Assembly (NCBI RefSeq): GCF_018608325.1
Contig: NZ_JABAZW010000142.1
Location: 325-41,311, forward strand
Origin: Brevundimonas sp.
GTDB lineage: Bacteria > Pseudomonadota > Alphaproteobacteria > Caulobacterales > Caulobacteraceae
Direction of reading: 5' to 3'
Length of the DNA stretch: 40,987 nucleotides
The stretch's first letter is position 1; each line of letters begins with the position of its first letter. Below, in pieces: positions 6,627-34,767 of this stretch. The notes below the pieces were generated by a model. It searched no databases, was not told the DNA's origin, and saw only the letters and a program-made list of their open reading frames with translations. A program made the translations under genes and the position numbers.

Positions 6627-6701
6627 GGACGCGTAGCTCAGCGGGAGAGCACCTCGTTCACACCGAGGGGGTCACAGGTTCAATCCCTGTCGCGTCCACC
6701 A
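6627..6701 (+). tRNA. tRNA-Val (anticodon CAC)
   Basis: A full cloverleaf can be folded. The acceptor stem GGACGCG pairs with CGCGTCC, the D arm contains TAGCTCAGCGGGAGAGC, and the anticodon stem CCTCG/CGAGG closes the loop TTCACAC (anticodon CAC). The T arm contains GGTTCAATCCC, and CCA is encoded. It is intact and is not the site used by the prophage. Confidence 0.97.
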
Positions 6702-7801: not shown

Positions 7802-8605
7802 CTAGTGCGGCTTGCTGGCCCATATAATCACTGTCTCGCCAGCTAGGTTTTCGATGAGCCTCTCTCGGATGAGAGGCTCATCCTCCTCATCAGGAGACAC
7901 AATGGTCGCGACTGACCGAACTTCAAATCCGACCCCTTTCAGAAACTCGGCCAGTCTGGTGTGCCTGAAATAGTGGATGTGCCACGGCGGCGCCCACCAC
8001 TTCCAATCCTGACGCTCTGCCTGCGCCTTGGCGCTTCCCCAGTGCGGTAGAGCGAGTATCAGCAGGCCGCCAGGGCGAAGCAAATCCCAGAACTTTCTCA
8101 GCGCTGCATATGGATCCGGCATGTGTTCAAGTGCGTGGCTTGAGCAAATGGCGCCAACCCCACTTAGGATAGGAAAATCCGGGTCAAGGACCGTTCCCGA
8201 CCATGCCTGAGCGCCATGGGCGCGAATAAATGAGGTAGCGTCGCCGTTCGGATCTATACCCCAAGCGTCATATCCAATCCGCGACCATTCAATGGGCCCG
8301 AGGCCGTGGGAGCAGCCTACGTCCATCAATGTCTCGCCATCCTGAATGCCGTTGCACCGCAGATCGCGTTGAAAATCAGCAGCCTGTTGACGCCAAGGGG
8401 ACGGATCGCGCAACCAATCCGCCGCTATTCCATCGCCTTGGTCACTGAAGCAGTTCTTCTCTCGATATGCGTTTGACAAGTCCGGTATGGGCCAAATCAT
8501 TTCGGCTCCGCACTCACATTCGACAAGCCTCCAGTCGTCGTGACGCAAGGTCACTGCACCAGATCGGGACGCGCAAGCGGGACAGATGAAGCGTTCGTGG
8601 AGCAT
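7802..8605 (-). CDS. SAM-dependent methyltransferase with N-terminal zinc ribbon
   Basis: The 267-aa protein begins with a CPAC...CECG zinc-ribbon-like pair (residues 8-11 and 30-32). A class I methyltransferase fold follows: SAM-binding motif LMDVGCSHGLG (about 93-103), then SSHALEHMPDPYAALRKFW and LRPGGLLILALP in the order seen in the type 11/12 families. The substrate is unknown. It is the last gene before the attachment site, next to the tailspike, and both are less GC-rich than their surroundings. That position suits a cargo gene altering the lysogen, for example by modifying surface sugars, but this is inference. Start ATG 8605. Confidence 0.75.
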   Translation of the reverse strand: MLHERFICPACASRSGAVTLRHDDWRLVECECGAEMIWPIPDLSNAYREKNCFSDQGDGIAADWLRDPSPWRQQAADFQRDLRCNGIQDGETLMDVGCSHGLGPIEWSRIGYDAWGIDPNGDATSFIRAHGAQAWSGTVLDPDFPILSGVGAICSSHALEHMPDPYAALRKFWDLLRPGGLLILALPHWGSAKAQAERQDWKWWAPPWHIHYFRHTRLAEFLKGVGFEVRSVATIVSPDEEDEPLIRERLIENLAGETVIIWASKPH

Positions 8606-8641: not shown

Positions 8642-10261
8642 CTAGGTGGTGATCTGGCTTGGCGCACTAGTGTAGTCGCTTACATAGCTTGCTGGTGCGT
8701 AATAGGATCCGACAACCTTTGCGCGACCGGTAGCGTCAGAGAACTCGATATTATTCTTCACCTTGTTGCCACCCGAACCAAGGAACGCGGGTGTCTCGAT
8801 GACAAGTGATGTGTCGCCGGTTCCGACGAAAATATCTGACCAGGTATTGTTGGCTGCAGAGCCGTTATCGTTAAAATCGACACCCTTCAGTCGCCGGATA
8901 GGCAAGATGCTGCCACCGCTCGTGTAGGCCTGGCTAAGGACTCCGTGCTTAGCGTTCTTGTCAACTCGGAAGCCGTTGATCCGAGCCATCAGGCATTCCG
9001 GTGAAAAACGCAGACCGATCCCATTATTCAGATAGCTCGCCCCTCCATTGATATCGACTTGAGCTACAGCGCCTAAGACGATTCCGTCTCCCCCGCTCGT
9101 TCCGACATCCACGCCGGTGAGAATGCAATCAAAACAACCTATGAAGAGGGCGGCGTCGGTTAAGCTGCCGCAATAGTCGATTGCCAGGTCATAGGCTTTC
9201 GATAGGCCACGTGCCGCCCCAAGATACAGACCGGAACGGTTGCTACCTTGGAGGTAGAGATTGCTAGATTGCAGTCCAAAGCCGTAGGCACCGTCAGATC
9301 TGTCCATAAACTCGACGATATGTTGCGGCAACGGGATGTTTGTCGGGTTCCCGTTCAGAAGAAGGTTTTCAAGAACCACGTGTCCTGACTTTGGACGCGC
9401 CCGGATCAGTGGGGCAGTAGAGCCGTCAGCCAGCTTGAGGCCCACGCCACGGTCAAAACCCCGTCCGTTCAGACCGCGTGTACGTTCACCAGCACCAAGC
9501 CCAATGAAGGCGACGCCCAAGCCCGCAACAGTTGATGTGTCCCGCACCTCCAACCCGCTTGTCACGTAGAAAGTTGCCGTTCCGCGCGGGTCCGTCCCAT
9601 CCTGTGGCGGGATGAAAAGGGCGCCATTGTAGGGCTGGAGCAGATCGATAGCCCTCTGAAGTTCTGCTTGGTTGTCTTTCAGCGTGCCATTCGGGTTGAA
9701 CAGCGAGACGCCGAAATCCGTCACTGCATTGGCAAAATGTTTGTGGCGATCACGAAGATTCGACGGAACGATGCCCGCACCGGAGCCTCCGATGGGAACC
9801 GGGAAGACCTTGCCCGAATAGTCGCCAGCATCGACATTACCGAGGTTGGAATTGGCTTTACCGATAAGACCGATACTTTCACCAGCCTCTTCCACGGCAT
9901 CAGCGATGAGCTGCGCCAGATCCTGCTGCTGAGCGGTCAGTCGGTTCAGCGCTTGGTCAACAGACCCGACAGGGACATTGTTGGCTGGCGAGAAGTTGGA
10001 AGCGCGCATCGGCCGGACGTTCCGCCAAATCCGCACCTCACCTGTCGCGGGCACGTTCAGAGAGACGGCTCCGCCTGCGTACCCGCCTCCATCCAGCAGA
10101 GTGCCGCTGAATGTGAAGTCTGACTGAAGCAACTTGACGCCATCGATCGATACCGACAGGTTCTCCTTTGCGAACAGGCTGAAGCTGATCGGAAATACGG
10201 CCTGCGCCGATGCGGTGAACGTCGCGAACGTCGGTTCGTCGGGAATGGTGAGGCGGGCCAT
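8642..10261 (-). CDS. Tailspike/tail fibre protein with T7-like N-terminus and beta-helix
   Basis: The 539-aa product starts with a particle-binding region resembling T7-type tail fibres (MARLTIPDEPTFATFTASAQ, then SIDGVKLLQSDFTFSG, about residues 1-95). A short helical linker follows (AQQQDLAQLIADAVEEAGES). From about residue 190 onward it has the repetitive short-strand pattern of a pectate-lyase-like right-handed beta-helix, opened by DNQAELQRAIDLL. It should bind, and perhaps cleave, a surface polysaccharide; no catalytic residues can be assigned. It follows motif copy 7 after a 29-nt gap with no visible Shine-Dalgarno sequence. Base composition is lower in GC than the neighbouring virion genes, suggesting module exchange. 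Confidence 0.85.
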   Translation of the reverse strand: MARLTIPDEPTFATFTASAQAVFPISFSLFAKENLSVSIDGVKLLQSDFTFSGTLLDGGGYAGGAVSLNVPATGEVRIWRNVRPMRASNFSPANNVPVGSVDQALNRLTAQQQDLAQLIADAVEEAGESIGLIGKANSNLGNVDAGDYSGKVFPVPIGGSGAGIVPSNLRDRHKHFANAVTDFGVSLFNPNGTLKDNQAELQRAIDLLQPYNGALFIPPQDGTDPRGTATFYVTSGLEVRDTSTVAGLGVAFIGLGAGERTRGLNGRGFDRGVGLKLADGSTAPLIRARPKSGHVVLENLLLNGNPTNIPLPQHIVEFMDRSDGAYGFGLQSSNLYLQGSNRSGLYLGAARGLSKAYDLAIDYCGSLTDAALFIGCFDCILTGVDVGTSGGDGIVLGAVAQVDINGGASYLNNGIGLRFSPECLMARINGFRVDKNAKHGVLSQAYTSGGSILPIRRLKGVDFNDNGSAANNTWSDIFVGTGDTSLVIETPAFLGSGGNKVKNNIEFSDATGRAKVVGSYYAPASYVSDYTSAPSQITT

Positions 10262-10305: not shown

Positions 10306-11046
10306 TTAGTGGGTTGTTGGCCTGACCAAGATCACAGGGTGTCCACCGCTGACGGGCCGCTGGGCGTCCTGCAGGATCATCCCGTCACGCTCCATTTCGG
10401 CGAGCAGCGCTTTGACCCTGGAATAGCCGTGTCGCTGGAACCGCTTGATGATGTCGCGCTGGGTCGCGCCCGGAGAAGCGTGGACCTGCTGGAGGATTCG
10501 GCCCTTCAGGTCGTCCTGGCTGGCGCTGCGGCTCGTGGTGAGAGAGCGCATGGAGGGCGTCATCGGCAAGCCGAGCACCTCCCACAGCTCACGAGCCGAC
10601 TGCCGGCAAAAGGTCACTCGCGCCTCGTTCACCATCTGACGGCGCTCCTGAAGAGTCAGGCCGTCGTGCAGTTGGGGGACGTGGGGCAGGGCGACTTCCT
10701 GACCTGAAGGGCCGAAATGGTCAGCGAGAACCTGGAAGCACTCTCGCCGGTATAGGGTGATCTTGTCTCTGATCTCAGGCCGCACCCGCGCGGCGTCGAC
10801 GCCGAACAGCCAGCCGTTGAGCAGGTGGAGGGGGAGGCAGATGGTTTCCTGGACGCCGCCGCTGGAAGGTGTTGCCATCATGGCAACGGCTTCTTTCAGG
10901 ATTGGATCGCGGTCTATGCGCCGGTACTGCGCCGACCAATCCAGACCCAGCGCCTCGACTATGGGACGCATCGCCACGAAGGGTTCGCCCTCGCGCTCAA
11001 AGGCGAACAGGGTGTCGCCGTGAAAGTCTATGGTGGCGAGTTCCAT
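10306..11046 (-). CDS. P22-type phage antirepressor
   Basis: The 246-aa protein starts at ATG 11046, overlapping the stop of the gene before (TGATG); the longer track ORF is an N-terminal overextension. Residues about 1-120 match the P22_AR_N antirepressor domain: a beta-rich start (IDFHGDTLFAFEREGEPFVA), then RPIVEALGLDWSAQYRRI and TLYRRECFQVLADHF. The C-terminal 75 residues look like a winged helix (GATQRDIIKRFQRHGYSRVK). Antirepressors of this class bind and inactivate phage repressors. The neighbouring divergent ribbon-helix-helix gene and palindromes make a P22 immI-like switch. Confidence 0.8.
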   Translation of the reverse strand: MELATIDFHGDTLFAFEREGEPFVAMRPIVEALGLDWSAQYRRIDRDPILKEAVAMMATPSSGGVQETICLPLHLLNGWLFGVDAARVRPEIRDKITLYRRECFQVLADHFGPSGQEVALPHVPQLHDGLTLQERRQMVNEARVTFCRQSARELWEVLGLPMTPSMRSLTTSRSASQDDLKGRILQQVHASPGATQRDIIKRFQRHGYSRVKALLAEMERDGMILQDAQRPVSGGHPVILVRPTTH

Positions 11047-11351
11047 CAGTGGCCCCGCAGGAATGCCAGAACCTCGCCCAGCATGGACCGATCCGTTCCA
11101 TCGGCGCGCTCGGCGTTCCCCTCGTCGATCCACGCTAGCACGACCGCCAGCTTTCCTGCGGCGTCGGCATGGGTCTGGATCGGGGCCTTGGCCACCAGAT
11201 CCCATATGGCCTCTTTGGTGGTCCACGCGGGTTCGAAGACGGCGTCATGCTCGGAATCGTGCTCCGACCAACGCATGATCGCATTCGTGGCGAAAAACGC
11301 CCTCGCCAGTTCAGCGGGTGGCGCGGGTATGCTAGAGGCTTCGCAGGCCAT
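11046..11351 (-). CDS. Hypothetical phage protein preceding the antirepressor
   Basis: The track ORF begins at a TTG (11402), but ATG 11351 has a GAGG sequence about 8 nt upstream and gives MACEASSIPAPPAELARAFF, 101 aa. It is predicted soluble and mostly helical, with no recognised domain. Its stop overlaps the antirepressor start, so the two are translationally coupled. It occupies the position of Arc in phage P22 but does not look like a ribbon-helix-helix protein. Function unknown. Confidence 0.65.
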   Translation of the reverse strand: MACEASSIPAPPAELARAFFATNAIMRWSEHDSEHDAVFEPAWTTKEAIWDLVAKAPIQTHADAAGKLAVVLAWIDEGNAERADGTDRSMLGEVLAFLRGH

Positions 11352-11419
11352 GACGTGATCCTCGGTGATCCGTTTCGGTTTAGGGCCGAGGAAAGGCTGC
11401 AATCCTTGCCTTGGCCCGT

Positions 11420-11439
11420 ACTTTCTGGCATTAGAAAGT
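11420..11439. promoter_or_regulatory. Palindromic operator candidate O1
   Basis: ACTTTCT and AGAAAGT arms flank six bases, immediately upstream of the ribbon-helix-helix ATG. Its centre is 32 bp (about three helical turns) from O2. It probably binds the adjacent repressor. Confidence 0.6.
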
Positions 11440-11440
11440 C

Positions 11441-11653
11441 ATGTCGTCAAGCGTTTCTAACGTTAGAAAGAAAACCGGCCGTCCCCCGGTGAACGCGGTG
11501 CCGTTGTCGGTGCGCGTCCCTCCCGACCTCCTGACCGCTGTCGATCAATTCATTGACGAGCGCCGAGCATACGGCGAAGCTCTATCCAGGCCCGAGGCTA
11601 TCCGTCGCTTGGCGACCGAAGCGCTTCAGAAGATGGGGCTCTATAGGCTCTGA
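11441..11653 (+). CDS. Ribbon-helix-helix (Arc/Mnt/CopG-type) repressor
   Basis: This 70-aa protein is one of very few plus-strand genes in the prophage. After a basic KKTGRPP stretch it has a strand-helix-helix pattern, VPLSVRVPPDLLTAVDQFID followed by LSRPEAIRRLATEAL, typical of small MetJ/Arc-fold DNA-binding dimers. It is divergent from the antirepressor operon, as Mnt is from arc-ant in P22, and two palindromes lie around its start codon. If ATG 11441 is correct, O2 falls inside the first ten codons; a GTG at 11490 is an alternative start. It probably represses the antirepressor promoter and its own. Its 3' end overlaps the convergent gene by 56 bp. Confidence 0.75.
   Translation: MSSSVSNVRKKTGRPPVNAVPLSVRVPPDLLTAVDQFIDERRAYGEALSRPEAIRRLATEALQKMGLYRL
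11454..11469. promoter_or_regulatory. Palindromic operator candidate O2
   Basis: TTTCTAACGTTAGAAA is a perfect 16-bp palindrome within the first codons of the ribbon-helix-helix gene. Between O1 and O2 the minus strand has TTGACG (11445-11450), which could be the -35 box of the antirepressor promoter. Confidence 0.65.
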
Positions 11654-12005
11654 CCCTTTTGACGCCGCGATCATCCAAAAAGGCGTTGCAGCTAATGTCC
11701 TGCTTGCACACTCGCGTTCGGAATGCAGTGCGGATCGCAACATCACCGAGAACGATGTCGAGGGCTGCCATCCGTCGTTCGGCAGCATCTGCGCCAACTT
11801 CCTGCGCCAAATCTGACCGGATGCTTTCTCGGACATCGCTACATAGAAGCACCGCGACCCTTCCAGAATCGAGCAGCGGCTCAGCGCCATAACCGATGTA
11901 GTAGGCTGCCTGGTCGGTGCAGGCCTGATATCGAATCATATTGTCGTAGTTTTGAGCCGCCGTCATTTGCAGGGCGACTGCTAAAAGCATCTCAATACCC
12001 ACCAT
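11598..12005 (-). CDS. Small exported cysteine-containing protein
   Basis: The 135-aa product starts at ATG 12005, overlapping the end of the large internal virion gene by 14 bp. The first 19 residues (MVGIEMLLAVALQMTAAQN) look like a signal peptide. Cysteines occur at QACTD, LLCSD, RVCKQ and ISCNA, consistent with two periplasmic disulfides. No domain is recognised. A periplasmic phage protein at this location could affect infection or superinfection, but nothing in the sequence proves that. Its 3' end overlaps the convergent ribbon-helix-helix gene. Confidence 0.6.
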   Translation of the reverse strand: MVGIEMLLAVALQMTAAQNYDNMIRYQACTDQAAYYIGYGAEPLLDSGRVAVLLCSDVRESIRSDLAQEVGADAAERRMAALDIVLGDVAIRTAFRTRVCKQDISCNAFLDDRGVKRVRAYRAPSSEALRSPSDG

Positions 12006-15000
12006 CACGCGCCTCGTCCCTTCGCCTGATCTTCTCTGCCGCCATGTCCTGTAGGTCGCTGGCGTACCGCTCGTTTATCATGGCGCTCGCATCACGACGA
12101 TAGGCGGTGATCACGTCCTTGATGTACTCGGCCTTGCCGCCGTCAGGGCCGTCGGTCAGGCTGAAATAATAGTCGCTGTCGGCGTGTTGACCGGACACGA
12201 CCGCGTTCAATTGTTCGAACGCAGGCTCGCCCGCCAGACGTAGCATTTCGCTGTAGATGTCTGGACGGTTCTTTAGACTGACGCTTTCGCCCATGACGCT
12301 GATCGTCCGCCCCGGCATCGACACCGAGACGCCGTTGTTCAGGATTTCGAGATCGATGGCCGAGCCGCCAGCCGCGCGGGTTTGCACCGGCACGATGGCG
12401 TCATAGACGGTTCCCAGGCCAGTCTGATAGGTGCGCGGTTTGCCCCACAGATCGCGCTGCGGAGGCAACTCGTCGCTGAACCCCGGGATGGTGTTGCGGA
12501 TTGCATCGACCACGCCTGCCGTCTCGCGCAGGTAATCGTCGGCTCCACGGCGCGTCATGCGGAGAGCGGAACTGCCGGGGATCATCCCGGAAATGCGCTG
12601 CTTCAGAAGACGTTCGGCATCGTCTGGCGTGCCGTCGAGCATTGCTGACGTGAACTCTGAGGCGCCCTTCAGGATGGTCTTGTCGAAGAAGGCCTGTCCG
12701 ATGGCCTGCACGGCGTGGGCCGCAACTTCGTCCCATTCCTGGCGCCCAGCATCGTCCCAATCGCTGTTCTTCATAAGGTCGGCCATGTCGCCAATCAGGG
12801 CGAGGCCTTGCCCCAGTGGGTCGGCGCGCTCGAAGCTGTACCAGCGATCACCGAATCGGACGGAGTAGGGTTGCCAGACCTGACCGCCATACTCGTCGGA
12901 TCGCATCAGGGCCTCTTTCTGGGCGCGGTTGCCCGGCCCCTGGCCCGTGATCTGTCCGTCCATCGCCATGCCCATCCAAACGGACCACAAGGCCGTGCCG
13001 ACGGCCATCCGCGCCTTGGCGGTTTCAGCAGCGGCACCCCCAGCAGCAAGATCATTACGGAAGCGGCGGCTGAAGGGAGCGAGGGGAGAATAGCGCATCC
13101 CCATGCTGATTAGGTTAGCGGGCGTCTTGATGAAGGGAAGAATGACCGTTCCAAACGGCACCGGCGTGGAGTCTGCGCCTTCACGCAGCGCCATGAAGCC
13201 CTCGGCAATGGTTTCGCGCGGAGATTCCTTCTGCCCCTTGAACTCTCGGGTTGTGATGTCCCGCGTGAACGTCAGGTCGTGCATTTCCTGCTCGGCCGCT
13301 TTCAGCATGTCATCGGTCGGGTTCTCCAGCAGATCAGCCATGCGCTGCGCCGCAGGTCCGCCCTCCAGCCCTTCGTGCATCGTCTGACGGAAAGCCTGGG
13401 CGTGCAGTTCGCCCCGCGCCGCAATCGACTTGAACGCATCATCGGTCAGGTTGTTGATGTTCGACGGCGCGTTGACGATCATGTTCATGATGTCGAGCGT
13501 ACGGCCCAGCACGCTATCTTCTTCGACGCGCCATGCGGCTGCTGACAGGGGGCGGTCTGCGCCGCTGCCCAGCATCCCAGCCTCTTCGCGCTCGGCGCGC
13601 AGCTTCAGGCCATCGGGAATGGAGTCGTCCAGACCCGGCGCCATGCCCCGAAACAGGCCGTCCCGACGCAGAGATTCGCCCGCGTTCGCCCCGATCCGTT
13701 CCGCCGCCTGCATGGGGTTCAGCTTGAACATGTCGCGAAGCGCCATCTGGTAGCCATGCACCAGCGCCGTCGCCTCACCGATCTGCGTTGACGCATTGCC
13801 TCCGAACGCGCGGGCGAGGCGAGGGGACACGGCACGGCTGGCGATGTTCATGCCCAGAATGCCGACGTTGCCGACGGCGTTGATTACGGGCGTGCCAATG
13901 CCGGACAACAGGCTGTTGGTGTAGATGAACTTGGCGACATCGCGCGTCCGCGCGCCCCAGCCGTTCTTGATCATCTGGTTCAGCGCTACGTCGCCCGCCT
14001 CAGCAGCCGCCAACACCCGGCTCGCCAGTTCCTGAGCGCTGTTCGCTCCGCCGATATCCGCCAGCAGGCTATCGACCTGACGCAGATAGGAGGCGGGCTG
14101 TCCGGCCGGAATCTTGAAGGCGTTCAGCGCGCGACCGGCCTCGGCACGGGCACCCAACAGTTCATTCTGGATGGCGCTGTGTGCGGCGGTCGCGCGACGG
14201 AAGGCGTATTGGTTCGCGACCGTCGGGTTTTCCTGCACCGCCCGCGCAAGCTCCAGCACCTTGGACGCGCTGGCGTTGGTTGCCTCGCGGAAGGCCAGTG
14301 CCGTTTCTGCATTGACCGCCTCCCCCGCGCGACGGCTGGCCATCTCCTGAACCCAATCGACCTTGCCGGATGCGGCACGGGTATCTTCCCACGTCCGCGT
14401 CGCACGGCGGGCCAGATCGGCGTCCTTGGCGAAACGATCCGCCATGCCGACGATGACGGCCTGCACGTCCTCGGGCGTGTCCAGGCGCGATAGGTTGATA
14501 TCGAAGACGTTGGCGGACGGCGCGGCCTCGGCCACCTCTGCGGCCATCTCGGCGGGTTGTTTACTGGTCGAGCGCTCGGCTCGCTGTATTTTACGCGTGA
14601 GCAAAGCCGCGTCTGTTTCGGTGCGCTCCCTAAACCTCGGCGCCTCAGGATCGCCCAGCACAGCCTTGATCTGTTGCTGCATGGCCTCGCCTTCAATCTC
14701 GGCGCGCGGCTTGGGTAGATCGGGCGGCACCTGCAGCCCTTCGGCGGCCGCAACCTCACGCGCCATCAACTTGGTCTGGCGCGCGGCGCGCAGCGCACGG
14801 ACGCCGCCGATCAGGGCGTCTGTGGCCAGCCCCAGGCCCGCACCCTCCAGCGCGTTCTTGGCGCGGCCCAGCAGTTCGGGGTCATCCTCCTTGGCGGCGA
14901 GGAAATCAAAGACTGGAGCCACGGCGTCCGGCGCATGCTCCGCCAACAGGTTGGACAGGCGTTCCTCCTGCCCGTCGAACACGGTGAAGTCTGCCAGTGC

Positions 15001-16107
15001 GCCTTGAGCCATTGCCTTACCGACACGGCCTGCGGTCGCCGCCGCCTTCCAGCCGCGCAGCGCTGCGCCACCGCCTGCCCATCCAGCCGCGAACTGTGTG
15101 ATGCCCTCGATCAGGCGCCCCGTGACCGTCTCGGGGCGCTCTTCCTCCGTTTGGGGCGCACGGATGCGCGCGGCTCCAAGGCGCTGCCATATTGACCTTT
15201 GTCCGTACTGCGCCGCCTCCTGATCGGCCTGCGCCTGTTTGCGCGTCGTCAGTTCCAGCTTGAAGGGCGTCGATGCATCACCATCCAGACCCGACCACGC
15301 AATGGTGCCGGGGACGTACTGCTCGATCCAGTCGCCCGCCTCGTCAATCAGGTCCATCGTGGCGTTGAACGCCCGCTTTCCGCCCGACACGATGGCCTGA
15401 CCGCCTTCGAGAAACAGACCCTTGCCGACATCCTTCGCCACGCCAATGGCCATTTCATCGGTGATGCCGAAACCGGCCTGCACAGCGTTGCTCAGGTCGC
15501 GCGTTTCCTGATCCAGGGCTGCGCTCTCACGCTCTTCCTGTCGCCGGGCATAGGACATGTCGAGCGGGGCAGATGCAGGGTCGCTGCCGACCACGCGCGC
15601 CCAGACGTTGCGATTGGGGTCCAGCTCGTAACCCTGCGCGCGCAGGCTCTCCGGCGTGTCGGTCGGCGCCAGATCCTGGCTGTTGATCACTCGATAGTTG
15701 GCATTCGTCGCATCGCTGCCGCGCCCAGCCAGAGCCTGCACATAGTTGCGCGTCTCGGCCGAATAGCGGCTCCAGTCCTTTCCGCGCGACCGCGCATTTC
15801 CGGGACCGGAGTTGTACGCCGCCAGCGCCAACTCAGTGTCGCCGCCGAAGGCCGTGAGCTGCTGAGACATGTAGCGAACACCGCCGTCGATGTTCTGGCG
15901 CCAGTCATTGGGGTTCACACCCATATCGCGCGCCGTCCCCGGCATCAGCTGCATCAGGCCGCGCGCGCCGACCGGGGAGACTGCGCTCGGATCGAAGCTC
16001 GATTCCTGACCGATCTGGCGCACGATCAGCTCAGGATCGACGCCATGCTCCTGCGCCTTGCTCCGGGCGAAGGACTCGATTTCGTTGCGGCTGGGGTTAG
16101 CGGCCAT
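11992..16107 (-). CDS. T7 gp16-like internal virion protein with lytic transglycosylase domain
   Basis: The true start is ATG 16107 (MAANPSRNEIESFARSK), giving 1371 aa; the track ORF adds 59 residues read through the neighbouring gene. Residues about 20-110 form an SLT lytic transglycosylase domain with catalytic Glu35 in QESSFDP, GLMQLMPGTA (50-59) and AAYNSGPG (96-103). The rest is long and largely helical, as in podovirus ejection proteins. It should cut peptidoglycan and form part of the DNA-ejection channel across the envelope. It is the third gene of a gp14/gp15/gp16-like series and overlaps the preceding gene by 11 bp. Confidence 0.88.
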   Translation of the reverse strand: MAANPSRNEIESFARSKAQEHGVDPELIVRQIGQESSFDPSAVSPVGARGLMQLMPGTARDMGVNPNDWRQNIDGGVRYMSQQLTAFGGDTELALAAYNSGPGNARSRGKDWSRYSAETRNYVQALAGRGSDATNANYRVINSQDLAPTDTPESLRAQGYELDPNRNVWARVVGSDPASAPLDMSYARRQEERESAALDQETRDLSNAVQAGFGITDEMAIGVAKDVGKGLFLEGGQAIVSGGKRAFNATMDLIDEAGDWIEQYVPGTIAWSGLDGDASTPFKLELTTRKQAQADQEAAQYGQRSIWQRLGAARIRAPQTEEERPETVTGRLIEGITQFAAGWAGGGAALRGWKAAATAGRVGKAMAQGALADFTVFDGQEERLSNLLAEHAPDAVAPVFDFLAAKEDDPELLGRAKNALEGAGLGLATDALIGGVRALRAARQTKLMAREVAAAEGLQVPPDLPKPRAEIEGEAMQQQIKAVLGDPEAPRFRERTETDAALLTRKIQRAERSTSKQPAEMAAEVAEAAPSANVFDINLSRLDTPEDVQAVIVGMADRFAKDADLARRATRTWEDTRAASGKVDWVQEMASRRAGEAVNAETALAFREATNASASKVLELARAVQENPTVANQYAFRRATAAHSAIQNELLGARAEAGRALNAFKIPAGQPASYLRQVDSLLADIGGANSAQELASRVLAAAEAGDVALNQMIKNGWGARTRDVAKFIYTNSLLSGIGTPVINAVGNVGILGMNIASRAVSPRLARAFGGNASTQIGEATALVHGYQMALRDMFKLNPMQAAERIGANAGESLRRDGLFRGMAPGLDDSIPDGLKLRAEREEAGMLGSGADRPLSAAAWRVEEDSVLGRTLDIMNMIVNAPSNINNLTDDAFKSIAARGELHAQAFRQTMHEGLEGGPAAQRMADLLENPTDDMLKAAEQEMHDLTFTRDITTREFKGQKESPRETIAEGFMALREGADSTPVPFGTVILPFIKTPANLISMGMRYSPLAPFSRRFRNDLAAGGAAAETAKARMAVGTALWSVWMGMAMDGQITGQGPGNRAQKEALMRSDEYGGQVWQPYSVRFGDRWYSFERADPLGQGLALIGDMADLMKNSDWDDAGRQEWDEVAAHAVQAIGQAFFDKTILKGASEFTSAMLDGTPDDAERLLKQRISGMIPGSSALRMTRRGADDYLRETAGVVDAIRNTIPGFSDELPPQRDLWGKPRTYQTGLGTVYDAIVPVQTRAAGGSAIDLEILNNGVSVSMPGRTISVMGESVSLKNRPDIYSEMLRLAGEPAFEQLNAVVSGQHADSDYYFSLTDGPDGGKAEYIKDVITAYRRDASAMINERYASDLQDMAAEKIRRRDEARDGGY

Positions 16108-17740
16108 GAAGAATCTCGTTTCGCTTCTGGTTGAATTCGCGCGTGGACATGGGGCGTCCGGTTCCCGCGCGTTGGTTGCGTTCGGCAGACAGGGCGGCGA
16201 GGCGGGCGGCCTGATCGGTTTGCGCGGCCTGCTGATTGGCCGGACGGCCCGCGCCCTGACCGCCGAACACGGTCTTGGCGACAAACTCTCCGAACTCGAT
16301 CCGCTGTTGCAGCGTGGCGTCAGGGTTGGCTCGCGCCCAGGTCACGGCGTGCGCTTCAGCCTGCGCCATAGGAACCGCATTGCCGCGCTGGCTCATGCCG
16401 GGGCGGCGTGACGCATCACGAACCGGCGCGAGCACGTCCGCGACGATGGGCTTCAGGGCGCGGTCGTTCAGACCCTGCAGGGTGCGCGCCTGCCCCTGCG
16501 TGATGATGCCTGCCGAAAGGGCGTCTGCGATCTCGGATGTCGACAGGGTTCCAGCCTGTGCCGAATCCCTGATCTCGCCATAGGCCAGACGCGCATTGGT
16601 GCGCTCAAGCTGCGCATCGCGGTTGGTGTCCGCGCGCTCGCGACGTTCTTGAGTGCGAACCGAGTTGATCAGGCCCGCCTTCGCCGTGTCGCTCAGATCG
16701 GCCCGCGCCTTGATGTCGCTCTCTGTGACCTCCCCCATCAGAATGCCAAGGCGCAGATCGCCAACGGCTTCCCGCTCGGCGGCGCGTGCAGCACGCTCGG
16801 TTTCCTCCTGCAGACGCTTCTCTTCACGGTCGGCTGCGCTGAAGACGCGCACCTGTTCCAGCGCATCACGATTCACGCGTGCGCGACGTTCAGGCGTCAG
16901 GTCTTTGAAGGCCTCGCCCTGCAGCACCTCAGCGTTCAGGAAGCGCGTCGCTGCCGCCAGCCCAGCCTGTCCGCCCCCGGCGTCAGAATAGGCCTGCACC
17001 GCAACGCGAGCGATGCCCGCACCCAGCACGGCCTCATCGACCTTGTTGTCATCCAGAGCCCGCTGCTCAGGCGAATAGGTGATGGCGGGATTGTCTTGAC
17101 GCTGCTGCTGCAACGACTGCCGCTCGTCGGCGGCGGCGAGATATTCCGGCGCATCCTGGCCGCCCGGCTGCGAGGCCAGCGCGATCAGGCGCTCATCCAG
17201 CTCACGCACCCGCACAGTGAGGGCCTGGTTCGTCTCTGCCTCGTCCCGTTGCGACCGCGCATCCGCAACGGACGACAATCCGCTCGCCGTCACGCCAGTG
17301 GCGTATTGCTCTACAGCGACGGCGAAGTCCGGGGGCGCGCCCTGGATAAAGCCGGACACCATCTCCTTGGCGGCCTGCTCATATCCGATGGGATCATAGC
17401 GAAAATCGCGGCGGATCTGGCGTTCACGTGCATCCACATCACTGCGAACCCGCGCACTATAGGCCGTCTCCACCGCAGACTGCCGCGCCGCCGCGACATC
17501 ACCAAAGGTGAAGCGCGGCGCCACATAGTCTTTCTCGCCCGCCGCAATGGCCGCGCCTTCCTCCATTCCGCGCGCCTGGGCGCGACGTATCTGGTTGGGC
17601 TTGGCCGCCTCCGACAGCCGGTCGAATACGCGGGTCGCCTGATCCCACATCTGACCTTCGCCGTTCCGAAGATCGACCTGCGGCGCGATGTTCGAGACTT
17701 CGATATTGCGGCGCGGCTGCGCGCTCTGTCCGGTCGCCAT
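16097..17740 (-). CDS. T7 gp15-like internal virion protein
   Basis: The 547-aa, highly charged, mostly helical protein has long coiled-coil-like stretches (EEKRLQEETERAARAAEREA). No enzymatic motif is visible. It sits between a small gp14-like gene and the transglycosylase-bearing gp16-like gene, the order of ejection proteins in T7-like podoviruses, so it is probably an inner-core ejection protein. ATG 17740 follows the preceding stop by 5 bp. The call depends more on gene order and size than on a sequence signature. Confidence 0.7.
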   Translation of the reverse strand: MATGQSAQPRRNIEVSNIAPQVDLRNGEGQMWDQATRVFDRLSEAAKPNQIRRAQARGMEEGAAIAAGEKDYVAPRFTFGDVAAARQSAVETAYSARVRSDVDARERQIRRDFRYDPIGYEQAAKEMVSGFIQGAPPDFAVAVEQYATGVTASGLSSVADARSQRDEAETNQALTVRVRELDERLIALASQPGGQDAPEYLAAADERQSLQQQRQDNPAITYSPEQRALDDNKVDEAVLGAGIARVAVQAYSDAGGGQAGLAAATRFLNAEVLQGEAFKDLTPERRARVNRDALEQVRVFSAADREEKRLQEETERAARAAEREAVGDLRLGILMGEVTESDIKARADLSDTAKAGLINSVRTQERRERADTNRDAQLERTNARLAYGEIRDSAQAGTLSTSEIADALSAGIITQGQARTLQGLNDRALKPIVADVLAPVRDASRRPGMSQRGNAVPMAQAEAHAVTWARANPDATLQQRIEFGEFVAKTVFGGQGAGRPANQQAAQTDQAARLAALSAERNQRAGTGRPMSTREFNQKRNEILHGR

Positions 17741-34239: not shown

Positions 34240-34767
34240 TCATTCATCGTCATCGTCCTCGAAATCAGCCCGTCTGACTCGCTCAGAGTCTGACGATGGA
34301 AGGCTAAGTGGCTGATATGGTTCGGCTTCGATGACACCCGGCAACCGATTGTTTGTCGGTTGCCCTCCCAAATGCACCTCTTTCGTGATGATCTGGACGA
34401 GCTGACGGGCCTGCTCGGGCATGGCTGCACGGGCGTCCTTGTCCGCGTCGATGAAGACCTTGGCGGCCTTGAGGCGCACATCCTCAGACATGCCTCGGCG
34501 CTGCAGATCGGCCGCCGTGAGCCAAGCCTGCTCTGTTTCAGAGGCCAACCACGCGCGCTTGACATCGGCCCTGAACGCTTTGACGTGCGGCTTGATTAGG
34601 GCTTTGGCTAAGCTTTCGGTCTTGTAGCCTGTGCGTTTGGCGGCATCCGCAACTGTCAGGCCCTCATGAACGATGAGCGTGATCGCGGTGCGCAGAGCGG
34701 GGCTTACACGGCCCTTGCGGATCATGGCGCCGTCGCGATCATACAGGCCGTGGTCGCCAGTGGACAT
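34240..34767 (-). CDS. HTH protein, possible terminase small subunit
   Basis: 175 aa. A basic N-terminal region leads to a helix-turn-helix, LIVHEGLTVADAAKRTGYKT (about residues 31-50), then a helical domain rich in charged residues and an acidic tail (FEDDDDE). This architecture occurs in small terminase subunits that recognise phage DNA. It is far from the large subunit (26.5-28.1 kb), so another DNA-binding role is possible. The start ATG overlaps the upstream XRE gene stop. Confidence 0.5.
   Translation of the reverse strand: MSTGDHGLYDRDGAMIRKGRVSPALRTAITLIVHEGLTVADAAKRTGYKTESLAKALIKPHVKAFRADVKRAWLASETEQAWLTAADLQRRGMSEDVRLKAAKVFIDADKDARAAMPEQARQLVQIITKEVHLGGQPTNNRLPGVIEAEPYQPLSLPSSDSERVRRADFEDDDDE

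Follow-up and report, generated by a model that had tools for sequence, protein, structure and literature searches.

A candidate two-layer lock on an antirepressor operon in the late region of a Brevundimonas prophage

Which regulators could keep an antirepressor gene silent when it sits among the virion genes of a temperate podovirus? This question is raised by a prophage of Brevundimonas sp. in a stretch of 40,987 bases that we call the window (bases 325-41311 on a contig of 49,908 bases; genome size 3.5 Mb). Host genes (ribose-5-phosphate isomerase, nucleotidyltransferase) and a tRNA-Val gene (6627-6701) occupy its left side, and to the right of the host genes lie the virion, lysis, and replication genes of a podovirus, all pointing leftward. 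The tRNA-Val gene at the host/prophage boundary is a likely attachment site; the stretch of contig that was read showed no recognisable integrase, so the other prophage end may lie beyond the contig. A methyltransferase gene (Methyltransf_23; 7802-8605) lying on the attachment side of the tailspike could possibly serve lysogenic conversion or virion modification. The locus studied here is bordered by the gene of a probable tailspike (8642-10261, minus strand; assigned in the original prediction by reading the sequence and free of Pfam or other family hits) and by that of an internal virion/ejection-type protein with a transglycosylase domain (11992-16284, minus strand; phrog_6651 internal virion protein, E = 3e-41, plus lytic/transglycosylase hits). 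By position, the former is the probable counterpart of P22 gene 9 and the latter the counterpart of P22 gp16.

Between these genes, the original prediction had placed a ribbon-helix-helix (RHH) gene divergent from a two-gene operon that ends in an antirepressor with a P22_AR_N domain, and the open reading frames together with matches to RHH_1, P22_AR_N, and PHROG families confirm this module. The antirepressor gene ant (10306-11046, minus strand) encodes 246 amino acids when read from an ATG inside the listed open reading frame, which starts with GTG. Its product matches P22_AR_N (E = 3.5e-36; residues 5-112, bases 10711-11034, minus strand) and phrog_524 anti-repressor Ant (E = 3.6e-48), and is predicted to inactivate a prophage repressor. 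P22_AR_C is absent from it at E <= 1 and present in the Ant proteins of phage epsilon34 and a Mannheimia phage. The C-terminal remainder gave just a sub-threshold winged-helix match and no family above cut-off, and the AlphaFold model is confident only for the N-terminal ca. 110 residues (mean pLDDT 59). P22_AR_N is rare in these bacteria, with one case among 299 genomes of the order (the window's own) and two among 337 of the class; a first scan of named genomes returned no close relative of Ant, and one additional P22_AR_N case, in genome G339, was met by tracing the cassette described below. The first gene of the operon is a 101-codon leader ORF (11046-11351, minus strand) that stands in place of P22 arc and whose TGA overlaps the ATG of ant (TGATG). 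It has no hit in Pfam, PHROG, or NCBIfam, including toxin families, and its identification as Arc was rejected in the absence of any RHH or Arc match.

The divergent RHH gene (11441-11653, plus strand) encodes a CopG/RHH_1-type protein of 70 amino acids with a KKTGRPP N-terminal arm. It matches phrog_4738 "transcriptional repressor" (E = 8e-8) and Pfam RHH_1 slightly below the curated cut-off (E = 6e-4), with homologues in 15 further genomes of the same genus. The proposed classification as Mnt/Arc-type could not be upheld, since this protein hits neither Arc (PF03869) nor Mnt (PF11423), whereas both are found in the control proteins of epsilon34, and BLASTP against epsilon34 Mnt and Arc gave no match. 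Searches of phage records yielded no relatives of the RHH or leader proteins, and sequence searches for solved structures found none related to RHH or Ant. The 3' end of the RHH gene has a 56-base tail-to-tail overlap with a 136-codon ORF lacking family hits (11598-12008, minus strand).

Palindromes suggested for this intergenic region do exist: two operator-like arms on the plus strand, one 5' of the RHH ATG (11421-11437, CTTTCTGGCATTAGAAA) and one within the start of the coding region (11454-11470, TTTCTAACGTTAGAAAG), form an inverted repeat around the RHH start codon that beats 60/60 dinucleotide shuffles (p = 1/61). Most of the 49 family loci with such a gene have the RHH start codon bracketed by inverted-repeat arms, the sequence of which varies between loci (p <= 0.05 in 38/49; mean z 4.3). 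Between the arms of the window, the hexamer TTGACG (11445-11450, minus strand) is a candidate -35 element of the leftward leader-ant promoter; a consensus scan found no full sigma-70 promoter.

Because ca. 80 bases between the divergent genes are conserved among the RHH homologues, we searched this interval for an RNA and found one that had been overlooked before: a structured antisense RNA of ca. 82 nt at 11345-11426 on the plus strand, i.e., on the strand of the RHH gene, complementary to the ribosome-binding site (RBS) and ATG of the leader ORF and ending a few bases 5' of the RHH start. It consists of a 5' hairpin with an anti-Shine-Dalgarno loop followed by a terminator-like hairpin, and an alignment of 17 copies folds in the same way. 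Membership of the window RNA in this family is supported by a held-out covariance model (R2), from whose construction both the window and locus L036 were left out and which finds the window with 54.1 bits and E = 4.6e-13 (E-values of such models being rough by the tool's own statement) and also finds loci of P22_AR_N, AntA, and pRha genes. Across 32 copies, 94.6% of cells pair and 18/24 pairs show double-sided changes (115 such cells observed vs. 34.5 +/- 6 after shuffling), in an alignment that was fitted to the model and is thus biased towards it, though an earlier MAFFT alignment had already shown 13 compensated pairs. The covariation score falls from 0.485 to 0.13-0.14 when partners are slid by one base and collapses for slides of one to three bases, and the fold of the window RNA itself has a z of -3.08 (0/200 shuffles). 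The excess of G-U over A-C cells (129 vs. 11) assigns the RNA to the RHH strand, antisense to the operon. The ATG of the first ORF occupies a fixed position within the RNA in almost all of the 73 family members, and the hexamer AGCCAT (complement of ATGGCT) is almost invariant. Right past the RNA, 49/73 copies have the start of an RHH gene that is divergent from the operon. At constant offset, 57/73 copies carry a -10-like (T)GnTA(T) box, represented in the window by GCTAGA (11331-11336, plus strand), which may act as the promoter of the RNA. The window copy has a weak U-tract (CCCGTACTTTCT) and may therefore terminate poorly.

We estimate a probability of roughly 70% that the whole is an antirepressor moron under a double lock, situated among the late genes of a temperate podovirus. 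During lysogeny, the RHH protein would bind the inverted repeat that brackets the start codon of its gene, and occupancy of both arms would limit its own synthesis and shut the leftward leader-ant promoter. The antisense RNA of ca. 80 nt, presumably transcribed from its own promoter just within the leader ORF, would pair with the leader RBS and start codon on any leader-ant mRNA that escapes repression and block its translation. Given the overlap of the leader's stop codon with the start of ant, translation of ant would probably be blocked as well. Upon induction, or when phage DNA enters a cell poor in RHH protein and RNA, these locks would fail and Ant would be made. It would then disable a repressor (the most probable one being the CI-like protein of an immC-like region outside the window) and thereby lead to lytic growth.

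This CI-like protein of 197 amino acids is encoded just beyond the window (C174:47080-47673, equal to L006:7081-7674) and divergent from a 65-codon Cro-like ORF. Its Pfam match to a helix-turn-helix family is weak and not significant (HTH_26, E = 0.09). Its gene is flanked by four GTTTCGTA boxes in two inverted pairs, with a chance expectation of 0.09 in that stretch; no such box occurs in the window. We regard this protein as the foremost candidate lysogenic repressor and as the likely target of Ant. The XRE gene at 34767, which had been put forward as the partner repressor, was rejected: it is co-directional with its neighbors in the replication/lysis region, with no early operon diverging from it, and a homologue of it shares a contig with a primase homologue.

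The RHH-RNA pair recurs well beyond this prophage. RNA model R1 found hits in 22/131 genomes of the genus, 16/348 of the order (8/55 genera), and 22/385 of the class (19/276 genera), counts that stem from one genome per species and are not independent events as some loci share a common phage ancestry. A 16-base core is common to 65 named genome stretches, 17 of which gave a total of 18 matches at E <= 0.001. Apart from one weak Bryobacteraceae hit of 25 bits, these lie in records named as alphaproteobacterial (Brevundimonas, Bauldia, Pseudorhizobium, Novosphingobium, Sphingomonas, Sphingobium, Roseiarcus, Neomegalonema, and others), and relatives of the cassette occur in cultured Brevundimonas such as B. 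bullata. Judged by these searches, the RHH and RNA family thus appears almost exclusively alphaproteobacterial so far. It is also present in phage contigs. A 16-bit hit near Ant on viral contig L002 was taken as chance, its strand being wrong for an antisense RNA. The window's own genome holds a second cassette 5' of an integrase gene (C17:18421-18500; L072/L133), which has its own RHH gene and operator arms unlike those of the window.

Behind the RHH-RNA pair we found mutually unrelated antirepressor-type genes (P22_AR_N, AntA+KilAC, pRha, Bro-N) and, in addition, an orphan S24 domain, MerR proteins, and HNH nucleases, with integrase or capsid genes downstream in several loci. Antirepressors are therefore recurrent but not exclusive cargo, and many cassettes carry other genes. 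The cassette of G339 sits among tail genes ahead of the tape-measure gene. The first two ORFs overlap in only 27/63 testable loci, so coupling as between leader and ant is not universal. At L079:6848-7222, the RNA-controlled first gene encodes an orphan S24-peptidase-like protein without helix-turn-helix that could interfere with a CI-type repressor. Five loci (L034, L035, L032, L040, and L076) encode similar cargo proteins of ca. 210-270 amino acids with a winged-helix-turn-helix-like N-terminus that adjoin integrase or capsid genes and, in the one case tested, have no Pfam hit; they may form a class of prophage regulator that has not been described so far. At L075, L077, and L078, the RNA element has no RHH gene beside it and precedes HNH/zinc-finger-type ORFs, with terminase-like genes also behind those at L075 and L078.

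Is the RNA a known one, and might the leader rather than ant be what it restrains? No Rfam family matches the window up to E = 1, and its assignment to a known family was rejected on these grounds. The closest Rfam model is that of SymR (RF01809), which gives full-length matches to three relatives at E = 1e-4 to 3e-3 with a best score of 39 bits, below the gathering threshold of 61. SymR overlies the symE start codon and RBS (PMC4147584), and the two RNAs are alike in size, two-hairpin layout, start at the start-codon complement, and anti-RBS position, while the family described here differs in its sub-gathering score, its phage ORF targets in place of symE, and its RHH partner gene. Following the SymE/SymR logic, the locus could be a type I toxin-antitoxin-like unit in which the RNA restrains a harmful leader protein and ant is a downstream passenger, and the leader ORF indeed begins within the RNA in almost all family members. 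We consider this unlikely, given that the leader ORFs are heterogeneous in sequence and length across the family, that the window's leader has no family hit, and that the first gene of the RNA-controlled operon at L007 is itself a pRha gene. The N-terminus that the leader ORFs share can be attributed to the RNA and its promoter occupying that stretch.

We hold it to be just as improbable that the RNA, instead of being a free antisense RNA, acts in cis as part of the RHH mRNA, in the role of a leader or attenuator. A read-through transcript would bear it as 5' UTR, since it stops a few bases before the RHH start. However, 24/73 copies have no recognised adjacent RHH gene, the 3' hairpin is terminator-like, and the RNA begins at the partner's start codon and carries an anti-Shine-Dalgarno loop. 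Slightly less probable still is a decaying cassette whose Ant has a non-functional C-terminal half. The missing family match and low-confidence fold of this half and the weak U-tract would fit such a remnant, whereas none of the three ORFs is broken, the operators and the pairing of the RNA persist, and the Ant of G339 aligns with the window's at 42% identity across 168 residues, i.e., past the P22_AR_N domain.

Antisense control of antirepressors has previously been worked out for P22 (sar) and P1 (C4). To our knowledge, the immI region of phage P1 differs from the doubly locked moron proposed here in using a different RNA and having no RHH gene. The two are alike in that an antisense RNA controls ant behind a leading ORF (C4 RNA, icd, ant; PMC8201110), and in P1 this leading ORF is reported as required for ant expression (PMC8201110). 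On plasmid pMV158, the CopG transcriptional repressor and antisense RNAII jointly limit repB (PMC4485353), which resembles the window in combining a CopG-type repressor with an antisense RNA on one gene; this is plasmid copy control, though, and copG is co-transcribed with the downstream gene (PMC5717011), not divergent from it.

The closest parallel is immI of P22 and epsilon34. The annotated order in epsilon34 is ejection protein, Mnt (reverse), Pmnt/Pant with the operator, Arc, sar (reverse) beside the Ant start, Ant, and tailspike, and its genome paper applies the name "ant moron" to the variable stretch that separates gene 16 from gene 9 (PMC2629481). The window shares the divergent small repressor of the ribbon-helix-helix class, the Ant-terminated operon, an antisense RNA across a translation start, and the slot between ejection protein and tailspike. 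The position noted in the original prediction is therefore correct, but rather than indicating mosaic import it equals the P22-like "ant moron" slot. Unlike immI, the window has no Arc/Mnt family protein, no P22_AR_C, and an unrelated 101-codon ORF in place of arc, and its antisense RNA covers the start of the first gene instead of the second (ant). Epsilon34 sar gave no meaningful hit to model R1 even with filters off. The proposed likeness to P22 immI thus stands as a well-supported analogy, but three parts differ from those of P22, namely the RHH protein, the leader ORF, and the C-terminal part of Ant; we see the module as a functional analogue and do not claim membership in immI, with homology limited to the Ant N-terminus. 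A truly homologous immI imported from enterobacterial phages, as the comparison had implied, would explain the identical gene order, polarity, and slot and the 37% identity of the Ant N-termini of the window and epsilon34, but it is very improbable because it is contradicted for the RHH protein and RNA by the missing Arc/Mnt and P22_AR_C domains, the failure of the RNA model on sar, and the nearly alphaproteobacterial confinement of the family, so that Ant alone may share ancestry.

In the proposed doubly locked moron, a P22-like job in P22's genomic slot appears to be done by an RNA and a repressor that are both unrelated to those of P22. We found no description of the RNA family in the open-access literature. 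We lean, with some reserve, towards a broader reading in which "RHH plus antisense RNA" is a portable, class-wide lock that alphaproteobacterial phages have repeatedly captured to silence morons, including unrelated antirepressors, with RHH-operator pairs private to each prophage and convergence on the design and slot of P22 immI. If this is true, private RHH-operator pairs would allow prophages that share a cell, such as those carrying the two copies in this genome, to avoid cross-regulation. Model R1 can serve as a search tool for candidate prophage-control operons of Alphaproteobacteria that are annotated merely as hypothetical proteins, and convergence in the design of prophage switches becomes testable in environmental bacteria.
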